Part shown: positions 17,911 through 24,280 of the stretch, one piece after another
Position numbering within the stretch: the stretch's first letter is position 1
How the letters are laid out: each line of letters begins with the position of its first letter
Origin: Oscillospiraceae bacterium
Lineage (GTDB): Bacteria; Bacillota; Clostridia; Oscillospirales; CAG-272
Direction of reading: 5' to 3'
NCBI GenBank assembly: GCA_015063485.1
Contig: SVUA01000016.1
Coordinates: forward strand, 1 to 36,435
DNA length: 36,435 nucleotides
Notes under the pieces: generated by a model
Seen by the model: only the letters and a program-made list of their open reading frames with translations
The model's database searches: none
Told to the model about the DNA's origin: nothing
Made by a program: the position numbers and the translations under genes

Positions 17911-17986
17911 CGGAGAGGGAGGGCATATTGCGTTCTCTCCCAAGGATCGAAAAAAATTTATAATATAAAAATGGAGGATTTTTACC

Positions 17987-19000
17987 ATGTCAGTAAAAGT
18001 TGCTATTAACGGCTTTGGCCGTATCGGACGTCTTGCTTTCAGACAGATGTTCGGCGCAGAAGGCTACGAGATCGTTGCTATTAACGACCTCACCAAACCC
18101 GAGATGCTTGCTCATCTTCTCAAGTACGACACCGCTCAGGGTCGTTACGACGGTCACACCGTAGTTGCAGGTGAGGACACCATCACCGTTGACGGAAAGA
18201 CCATCAAGATCTACGCTGAGAAGGACGCTGCAAACTGTCCTTGGGCTGCTCTTGACGTTGACGTAGTTCTCGAGTGCACAGGTTTCTACTGCTCCACCGA
18301 GAAGTCTATGGCTCACATCAACGCAGGCGCAAAGAAGGTCGTTATTTCTGCTCCCGCAGGAAAGGACCTCAAGACCATCGTTTACTCTGTTAACGAGAAG
18401 ACCCTTACCGCTGATGACAAGATCATCTCCGCTGCATCTTGCACCACCAACTGCCTCGCTCCTATGGCAAAGGCTCTTAACGACTACGCTCCTATCCAGA
18501 GCGGTATCATGACCACTGTTCACGCTTACACCGGTGACCAGATGATCCTCGACGGTCCTCACAGAAAGGGTGACCTTAGAAGAGCACGTGCAGGCGCACA
18601 GAACATCGTTCCTAACTCCACCGGTGCTGCAAAGGCAATCGGCCTTGTTATTCCCGAGCTCAATGGCAAGCTCATCGGTTCTGCACAGAGAGTTCCTACC
18701 TGCACAGGTTCTACCACTATTCTCGTAGCTGTTGTTAAGGGTAAGGACGTTACTGTTGAGGGCATCAACGCTGCTATGAAGGCTGCTTCTTCCGAGTCCT
18801 TCGGTTACAACGAGGATCAGATCGTTTCTTCCGATATCATCGGTATCCGTTACGGTTCTCTCTTCGATGCAACTCAGACCATGGTTGCAAAGATCGACGA
18901 CGACACCTATCAGGTACAGGTAGTTTCTTGGTACGACAACGAGAACTCCTACACCAGCCAGATGGTTCGCACCATTAAGTACTTCGCAGAGCTCAACTAA
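17987..19000 (+). CDS. gapA: Glyceraldehyde-3-phosphate dehydrogenase, NAD-type
   Basis: Glycolytic enzyme of 337 residues. The NAD fold has NGFGRIGR (8-15) and Asp34 at the end of the second strand, the residue that selects NAD over NADP. The active site has C152 in SCTTNCLAP and H179 in TVHAYTGDQ. Codon use differs from neighbours: C-ending codons and AAG for Lys dominate, as expected for very high expression. GGAGG at 17972-17976 precedes the ATG. It is monocistronic, between its own promoter and a perfect palindromic terminator. Confidence 0.97.
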
Positions 19001-22050: not shown

Positions 22051-22102
22051 ATTATAGAAATTTCAATTTGAATACCAAAAAATAAAAGGCATGGTCATAG
22101 TT

Positions 22103-23026
22103 ATGTTTAATACTAAAGAGCTTCAAGAAGAAATATTAAGATTAAAAAAGGAAAAGGACGTTTGCGTACTTGCTCACGCTTATCAGACACACGACGTGCT
22201 TGAGGTAGCCGATTTTGTGGGAGATTCGTACGGTCTCAGCGTACAGGCAAAGAGCGTTACGCAAAAGACTTTGCTTATGTGCGGAGTTCGCTTTATGGCG
22301 GAAACGGCAAAGATACTTTCTCCAGAAAAGAGAGTTATTCTTTCGCACTCGCTTGCGGGTTGTCCTATGGCGGAGCAGCTTTCGGTCGAGGAGTTGCGTG
22401 AGTTAAAGCGACAGAATCCAGATTATGCCGTTGTGGCTTATATAAATACTACTGCGGCTCTAAAGCAGGAATGTGACGTTTGCGTTACGTCGGCGTCTGC
22501 TCTTGAGATAGTTCGCAATATGCCGCAGAAGAATATTTTATTTATTCCTGACTGTAACCTCGGCGCGTGGATAGCCGAGCAAGTGCCTGAGAAGAACTTT
22601 AAGTTTATCAACGGCGGTTGTCCGATACATACGCGCATTACAAAAGAGGACGTTCTGAGGGCGAGAAAGGATCACCCCAACGCGCTTCTGTTGGTCCACC
22701 CCGAATGCAAGAAGGAGGTCAGCGTGTGCGCCGACTATCTTGGAAGCACTACGGGTATCATGGCGTACGTCAAGAAGAGCGACGCAAATGAGTTTATTAT
22801 CGGAACGGATAACAGTATCGTTCAGCATTTGCAGTTTGAGTATCCCGATAAAAAGTTCTACGCGCTTTCAAAGATATGTGTCTGCCATGATATGCGCCTG
22901 ACGACGCTTATAGACGTTTATCACTGCCTTGTCGGAACGGGCGGGGAAGAGATAGAGATAAGTGAGCATGACCGCAAGGAAGCACTGCGTTGCATTGACG
23001 CAATGATAAAATATTCGAATAAATAA
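22103..23026 (+). CDS. nadA: Quinolinate synthase
   Basis: [4Fe-4S] enzyme that condenses iminoaspartate with dihydroxyacetone phosphate to quinolinate. The 307-residue protein has the triplicated NadA fold; probable cluster ligands are C87 (AGCPMA), C202 (HPECKKE) and C259 or C261 (KICVCHDM). AHAYQ near residue 24-28 is the conserved substrate region. The ATG at 22103 is preferred because AAAAGG (22084-22089) is too close to the earlier in-frame ATG at 22091; the site is weak either way. Unlike the common nadABC order, nadA here is divergent from nadB and shares its operator region. Confidence 0.94.
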   Translation: MFNTKELQEEILRLKKEKDVCVLAHAYQTHDVLEVADFVGDSYGLSVQAKSVTQKTLLMCGVRFMAETAKILSPEKRVILSHSLAGCPMAEQLSVEELRELKRQNPDYAVVAYINTTAALKQECDVCVTSASALEIVRNMPQKNILFIPDCNLGAWIAEQVPEKNFKFINGGCPIHTRITKEDVLRARKDHPNALLLVHPECKKEVSVCADYLGSTTGIMAYVKKSDANEFIIGTDNSIVQHLQFEYPDKKFYALSKICVCHDMRLTTLIDVYHCLVGTGGEEIEISEHDRKEALRCIDAMIKYSNK

Positions 23027-23945: not shown

Positions 23946-23964
23946 AAAACCTCTCCTAAAATAC

Positions 23965-24182
23965 AAAAAGTGCGCCGACCGAGGTCAGCGCACAAAAACG
24001 CAAATTCCACAGTCGTCGCCAAACAAACTATATATAGAAGGGGTATATTACTATACTTACACCATATACGGAATTTGCATTTTATCAAATTCAATATGAT
24101 GTAAGTATATTCAAAAAAGGATAGAAGTACCCCTAAAAAAAGAAAATACACCCATTTAATGTATATATTTAGTTTGTTTGGC
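23965..24182 (-). ncRNA. Candidate structured leader RNA or small RNA upstream of the SLOG-like gene
   Basis: Transcribed right to left from a promoter at 24189-24217. Nested stems can be seen: outer 13 bp (24170-24182 with 24018-24030), AGGGGTA/TACCCCT (24128-24134 with 24039-24045), a 16-bp stem (24094-24109 with 24052-24067) and an apical 7-bp stem (24086-24092 with 24071-24077). A linker then carries GGAATTTGC (24000-24008), which is complementary to 24070-24078 in the apical stem, so an alternative fold is possible. A hairpin with a T5 tract (23965-23993) ends it, ahead of the gene's ribosome binding site. The two imperfect positions are G-U on this strand and A-C on the other. No known riboswitch class is recognised; a palindromic mobile remnant is the alternative. 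Confidence 0.5.
23970..23993 (-). terminator. Terminator-like hairpin in the leader of the SLOG-like gene
   Basis: On the minus strand an 11-bp stem GTGCGCTGACC / GGTCGGCGCAC with a 2-base loop and one G-U pair is followed by TTTTT (23965-23969). It lies 25 bp ahead of the start codon, the position of an attenuator. Confidence 0.65.
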
Positions 24183-24188
24183 AAACTT

Positions 24189-24217
24189 ATTGTACCACGA
24201 TTTTCGTTTTTTGTCAA
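24189..24217 (-). promoter_or_regulatory. Promoter of the candidate leader RNA
   Basis: Minus-strand TTGACA (24212-24217) and TACAAT (24189-24194) with 17-bp spacing. The expected start falls at about 24182, the first base of the outer stem. Confidence 0.7.
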
Positions 24218-24243: not shown

Positions 24244-24280
24244 TATGAGGGGGACTTTTTTCAAAAAAGTCCCCCTCATA
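24244..24280. terminator. Stem-loop repeat downstream of the GH2 gene
   Basis: Perfect 18-bp arms (24244-24261 with 24263-24280, core GGGGGACTTTTTT) around a single C. Same style as the hairpins at 19105 and 32124, and probably the GH2 terminator on the minus strand. Confidence 0.65.

Follow-up and report, generated by a model that had tools for sequence, protein, structure and literature searches.

What does a structured RNA with a promoter and a terminator of its own do when it lies directly ahead of a gene for a SLOG/YpsA-like protein? The locus that raises this question comes from an Oscillospiraceae bacterium (GCA_015063485.1, contig SVUA01000016.1), and we refer to the whole stretch of 36,435 nucleotides analysed here as the window; coordinates are window positions, and the leader lies on the minus strand. 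Overall, we believe with good confidence that the RNA acts in cis as a transcription attenuator, that its build resembles a riboswitch, and that it is expressed from its own promoter. At the level of sequence and covariation, its working parts are shown: an outer stem (P1), a pseudoknot between strands 2 and 3, an intrinsic terminator, and an antiterminator that excludes the terminator.

Layout of the leader and spread of its family

The promoter, the 13-bp outer stem, the nested stems inside P1, the pairing of an apical strand with sequence before the terminator, and the terminator itself, all proposed in an initial annotation of the locus, could each be mapped on the minus strand (Table 1). 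Two sets of related leaders underlie the statistics. For the long class, to which the window leader belongs, model R1 was built from 31 copies, and its 97 strongest matches (E 9.7e-10 or better), three of them without a locus, gave 94 copies; removal of one duplicate core and two copies without a T-run left the 91 distinct copies of alignment A6, in which one terminator is shortened by the T-run rule. For the short class, 37 of the weaker R1 matches, a part of them, were fetched, and 34 remained once a partial long copy, a divergent copy and a duplicate had been left out; alignment A8 comprises the short class plus three copies found beside them.

Table 1. Parts of the leader and the gene behind it, in window positions
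Feature	Position	Strand	Remarks
-35 box TTGACA	24212..24217	-	match of 4 of 6 or better in 84/94 copies
-10 box TACAAT	24189..24194	-	preceded by a 17-nt spacer; 5 of 6 or better in 90/94 copies
P1 outer stem, 5' strand	24170..24182	-	both-side changes at 7/11 counted pairs (alignment A6)
P1 outer stem, 3' strand	24018..24030	-	13 bp with the 5' strand
Strand 1 (GAATTTG)	24086..24092	-	pairs locally with strand 2 to form the apical hairpin
Strand 2 (AAAATGCAAATTCC)	24070..24083	-	pairs with strand 1 or, as pseudoknot, with strand 3
Antiterminator 5' strand (GCGACGACTGTGG)	24007..24019	-	shares 2 nt with the last part of P1 and 2 nt with the first part of strand 3
Strand 3 (GGAATTTGCGTTTTT)	23994..24008	-	pseudoknot partner of strand 2; tail before the terminator
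Antiterminator 3' strand (CCTCGGTCGGCGC)	23972..23984	-	terminator loop and most of the terminator 3' arm
Intrinsic terminator, 10-bp hairpin and T5	23965..23993	-	
Ribosome binding site (AGGAGAGG) of the SLOG gene	23950..23957	-	
SLOG/YpsA-like gene, 151 aa	23490..23945	-	ATG 23945-23943; YpsA E 0.0015, below the Pfam cut-off

The promoter is as regular as the stem that follows it. In 83 of the 94 copies the -10 box is directly preceded by TGn, and in 82 P1 starts 6 nt past that box; transcription probably begins with the first nucleotide of the stem. The combination of a -10 box (at least 5/6), a -35 box (at least 4/6) and a gap of 6-7 nt to the stem is found in 82 of the 94 copies and at 3 of 883 random positions within the same loci, which bears out the proposed promoter; the proposed terminator is supported as well. 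The fold of a 278-nt piece of the window has a minimum free energy of -88.7, compared with a mean of -54.5 (sd 4.7; z -7.3) for 200 dinucleotide shuffles, none of which is as low. By simple duplex and hairpin energies the window terminator scores -17.0, the antiterminator -17.6, the pseudoknot -17.9 and the local apical hairpin -4.9. A long palindrome (GAGGGGGACTTTTTT...) lies at 24247-24277, directly past an upstream gene for a glycoside hydrolase of family 2, which thus has a hairpin of its own behind it.

The window leader is one of six in its genome, five more than the initial annotation had seen: covariance models together with reading of the sequence count three of the long class (C21, C5, C62; cores of roughly 160-200 nt) and three of the short class (C57, C4, C49; cores of 120-150 nt). 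By DNA search alone this genome shows, besides the window leader, the long copies C5 and C62 and part of a copy on C4; the DNA search of relatives matched 55 of 147 genomes. R1 at E 0.01 or better has matches in 41 of 59 relatives, including 30 of 30 of the same genus (own genome included), with up to 10 matches within one genome, and at E 1e-4 or better it matches 55 of 291 genomes sampled from the class, again with the window's own. Model R2, built from 37 short-class copies, has matches in 28 of 38 relatives, and many of the weaker ones fall on copies of the long class; in a phylum-wide sample it matches one of 249 genomes, the window's own, a figure that reflects mainly the short class, since R2 detects long copies poorly. 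With R1 and R2 places added, one genome (G001) carries 13 copies. An exact pattern occurs in at least 120 stretches of genome contigs; among the matches listed are 80 loci titled Clostridia, Clostridiales, Oscillospiraceae, Ruminococcaceae or similar Bacillota, Pumilibacter intestinalis (strain CLA-AA-M10, leader L154) and Lachnospiraceae bacterium MD329 being two of the sources, and all 80 exact-pattern loci listed match the model, three of them cut by the locus end.

Two arrangements within the family may be recorded here. In one genome (G018:C25) two complete copies, L029 and L059, stand in riboswitch-like tandem, with cores at 17941-18121 and 18207-18384, about 85 nt apart. In another, G031, the leaders L071 (C53) and L294/L031 (C42) are broken within the terminator by similar downstream sequence that is followed by related ORFs; a transposon may have inserted twice at the terminator of these loci, and the one TnpV, a transposon protein, among 107 downstream proteins is plausibly that of L031.

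Pairing and the probable choice at the terminator

P1 and the pseudoknot are supported by changes on both sides of their pairs. Across the 91 long-class copies 97.9% of their cells are paired, compared with at most 52.1% when partners are slid, and 14 of 26 pairs, with 162 cells, have changed on both sides, a level reached in 0 of 500 shuffles; these shuffles, like the strand swaps below, leave the shared ancestry of the copies in place, as they do for the antiterminator and terminator statistics. The initial annotation had proposed a test of covariation among homologues and had paired GGAATTTGC with the apical strand; the pairing is there, and it is longer than claimed, spanning 15 alignment columns that are 97.4% paired. 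In two of these columns U-G is the commonest pair (45/91 and 67/91), which marks the minus strand as the RNA, as had been suspected from the window. Cognate strands also pair better than swapped ones, with z values of -25.7 for P1, -9.0 for the antiterminator and -9.2 for the pseudoknot in the long class, and of -13.6, -7.0 and -8.7, respectively, in the 34 short-class copies. The short class thus keeps all three pairings with different letters; in the pseudoknot on C4 (L004), for example, AAAAAGUGUU pairs with AACACUUUUU. Together, P1 and the pseudoknot form what appears to be a conserved structured domain of the sensor type, in which the A-tract of strand 2 and its flanking U-tracts could, as a speculation, build a U-A-U triple helix. 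An attenuator that relies on a conserved short upstream ORF is rejected: by a simple pattern, 13 of 91 cores have an SD-like motif followed by a start codon.

The element that the initial annotation had not described is an antiterminator that overlaps the terminator. Its 5' strand (consensus GGCGACNAUCGGAG) lies between P1 and strand 3 and pairs with the terminator loop and 3' arm, CUUCGGUNGnCGC. This pairing was noticed by reading the sequences first and counted afterwards, and model R1, with which the copies were gathered, does not extend to the 3' strand of the antiterminator. Its cells are paired in 90.2% of cases, compared with at most 51.8% when slid, and 29 cells are double-changed versus 6.7 in shuffles, of which 0 of 500 reach 29; its double-changed pair count is reached by 26 of 500 shuffles and its pair types by 33 of 500. 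Exceptions occur at columns 252/294, unpaired in 16 of 90 copies, and at 247/299 and 248/298, unpaired in 27 of 91 each, and the variable N and its partner are paired in 54 and unpaired in 14 of the 68 copies, out of 91, that could be parsed. The apical stem of the terminator, in which the shared 3' strand meets the terminator 5' arm, is 98.1% paired, with a double-changed pair count reached by 112 of 500 shuffles and pair types by 55 of 500. Mean energies in the long class are about -14.0 kcal/mol for terminator and antiterminator alike. Because the antiterminator uses the terminator loop and 3' arm, the two structures exclude each other, as judged from sequence and covariation, and the switch-like build that had been suspected is thereby borne out. 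The antiterminator also overlaps P1 by 2 nt and strand 3 by 2 nt in the window and four columns in A6, and it is through these overlaps that pseudoknot and antiterminator would exclude each other; since they are short, some of the antiterminator might still form beside a folded pseudoknot.

The general pathway of control can be outlined from these parts. Transcription would begin with the outermost 5' nucleotide of P1. Folding of P1 and the pseudoknot would occupy the antiterminator strand at either end, the terminator would form and the gene would be off. Should strand 2 keep to its local hairpin (pairing 1:2 in place of 2:3), both strand 3 and the antiterminator strand would be left free; the free antiterminator strand would then capture the 3' arm of the terminator, and the polymerase would read into the gene.

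Genes behind the leader and near-identical cores

The leader sits in front of genes, in the position of a 5' leader on an mRNA. Among the 94 copies, 92 have an ORF on the same strand, at a median of 22.5 nt past the terminator and within 100 nt in 87; 61 of these ORFs reach at least 100 aa, and their median length is 132 aa with flanks cut. Our ORF rule is lenient, as two controls show: shuffled downstream sequence gives an ORF in 61 of 94 (36 within 100 nt, 2 of at least 100 aa, median 49 aa), and the antisense side one in 75 of 89 (50 within 100 nt, 31 of at least 100 aa, median 77 aa). In a set of 112 loci, from which L004 was left out as partial and in which some sequences come from two collections (e.g. 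L039/L117, L042/L162), 107 have such an ORF, at a median of 29 nt and within 100 nt in 96, all distances being measured from a point 27 nt past strand 3, taken as the terminator end. Four of the five loci without an ORF end 5-171 nt past the core, and the fifth, L093, has none in 300 nt.

The genes themselves are very diverse. The 107 downstream proteins match 65 Pfam families, the largest of which, LRR_5, accounts for 11, and by a simple pattern 28 of the 107 have a lipobox-like N-terminus. Grouping by blastp divides 167 downstream proteins into 89 groups, 75 of them singletons, the largest group, of 35, being possibly joined via repeats or signal peptides. Surface proteins, lipoproteins, LRR, SLOG and zinc-ribbon proteins are all among them. 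The SLOG group contributes 10 of the 167, with a further group of two that is SLOG-like by eye, and most copies do not stand before SLOG genes. Thus, of the earlier proposal of a regulatory leader tied to a nucleotide-binding protein, the leader probably stands, and SLOG as its specific partner is rejected; a SLOG relative in the same genome (G000:C3:6358-6801) has no leader in the 260 bases upstream and no model match there. Two other SLOG relatives (G003:C28:13387-13842 and G022:C92:12234-12680) carry a short-class leader, so that both classes serve one gene family.

Of six aligned SLOG relatives, the window protein included, three match YpsA at E 0.1 or better. A PDB profile search with the window protein returned one match at chance level (E 0.7), and five proteins compared with the PADLOC defence families gave no match. 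The adjoining NadA gene (22091-23026) finds a match at E 1e-60 in 8 of 30 genus genomes, its own included, and none in the other 22; the window NadA, 42-45% identical to that of the seven other matching members, was possibly acquired, and synteny anchored on NadA is uninformative with matches in 8 of 30 genomes.

For 2 of the 94 copies the nearest non-identical core belongs to the same genome, and for 18 it stands before the same downstream protein group. A core identity of 90% or more is reached by 25 cross-genome pairs, 19 of which lack downstream homology by blastp; setting aside the 8 pairs with less than 500 nt downstream on one side leaves 17 informative ones, of which 12 lack detectable downstream homology and 5 have it. 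These 12 pairs, which represent about five subtypes and are hence non-independent, are 29-79% identical in the promoter spacer (baseline for unlike cores 46%, sd 16) and 44-70% identical in the upstream 100 nt (baseline 53%, sd 4); outside the core, identity thus drops mostly to near the baseline and in some pairs stays slightly above it. Pieces of rpoB from ten of these genomes are on average 81.4% identical (77.3-87.1%). Near-identical cores may reflect either exchange by recombination at the conserved ends or strong constraint on each subtype. Taken further, the core might be an exchangeable plug-in that answers to one general, perhaps undescribed signal and that recombination at its conserved ends spreads and swaps among genes and species, placing new accessory genes under common control; we regard this reading as rather doubtful, weakened as it is by spacer and upstream identities slightly above baseline and by the small number of subtypes, about five.

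The signal and competing readings

Since the same switch stands before unrelated genes, what it senses is probably a general cell state and not a metabolite confined to one pathway; a small molecule, an ion, a protein or something else may convey it, in favour of on or of off. Whether that signal reaches the attenuator through a small molecule or a dedicated RNA-binding protein is the closest contest in our analysis, and we give the protein somewhat less than an even chance. LicT/SacY, ANTAR and LoaP proteins offer models for control of termination by RNA-binding proteins; the very diverse downstream genes would suit one global regulator, and within one subtype the core keeps an identity of 90% or more in front of unrelated genes. 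Against this, the letters of P1 and of the pairing between loop and tail change while remaining paired, unlike those of a sequence-specific protein site.

We regard the attenuator as a putative member of a familiar type, one that works like a pseudoknot-controlled transcriptional riboswitch; membership among riboswitches requires a ligand, and the likeness is drawn by analogy. The fluoride, ZTP and preQ1-I riboswitches are pseudoknot-dependent and transcriptional, and share with the window family the 5' leader position, a pseudoknot of a loop with a 3' strand beside the terminator, and competition between terminator and antiterminator. The window family differs from them in its long P1, which begins 6 nt past the -10 box and closes the core, in downstream genes that share no common pathway, and in having no Rfam match. 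T-box and protein-dependent antiterminator leaders likewise set a terminator against an antiterminator; the window and 20 loci, however, have no match to the T-box model.

That the family is an already described riboswitch or leader overlooked by the Rfam models seems unlikely. At the gathering cut-offs of Rfam 15 there is no match in the window, as the initial annotation had anticipated, and 20 loci of both classes return two tRNAs only; below threshold the window gives 22 names from mixed miRNA, leader, sRNA and snoRNA families (best E 0.013), and one short-class copy gives none up to E 1. Within the open-access literature surveyed, PMC8040213, PMC11109978, PMC8632094 and PMC7266159 included, we found nothing like the motif; a description may exist elsewhere, since the survey covered open-access papers. 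That literature does describe a wide variety of downstream genes for c-di-GMP (GEMM) and other riboswitches (PMC7266159), a variety that the window family shares, although it has no Rfam match to GEMM or these other families.

A trans-acting small RNA of roughly 218 nt from promoter to terminator, with the gene behind it incidental, had also been entertained in the initial annotation and is now very unlikely. The RNA does have its own promoter and terminator, two copies stand about 85 nt apart in G018, and 5 of 112 loci have no ORF; against this, ORFs follow within 100 nt far more often than in shuffled sequence (87/94 versus 36/94), which links the RNA to genes, and a conserved antiterminator is unexpected in a simple trans RNA.

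Even less probable by some way is a MITE or similar miniature transposable element, with the two P1 strands as its terminal inverted repeats and with structure and position as by-products: such elements and putative mobile promoters are, like the window family, regulatory modules before unrelated genes in different genomes, and the inverted repeats at the ends, the near-identical cores before unrelated genes and flank identities slightly above baseline would fit, but the promoter geometry (82/94), the terminator close to the ORF, and U-G pairs and compensatory changes that reveal selection at the RNA level speak against it. Identity in the window family, unlike that in mobile promoters and MITEs, is concentrated in the transcribed core. 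The annotation had named scattered copies with transposon-like boundaries as evidence against its own reading; the copies do lie scattered away from the SLOG gene, yet the ends they share correspond to the ends of a transcript. A phage or plasmid origin is rejected as well, the window RNA having no match in phage or plasmid records at E 1e-5 and the exact pattern none in viral contigs.

If the cis-acting attenuator is the right reading, these leaders represent a large regulatory RNA class that no Rfam family matches at cut-off in the sequences searched, with a regulon made up of unrelated genes. In this context, the near-identical cores before unrelated genes would represent shared control modules rather than shared genes, and the signal, once identified, would point to a general cue used by these Clostridia.
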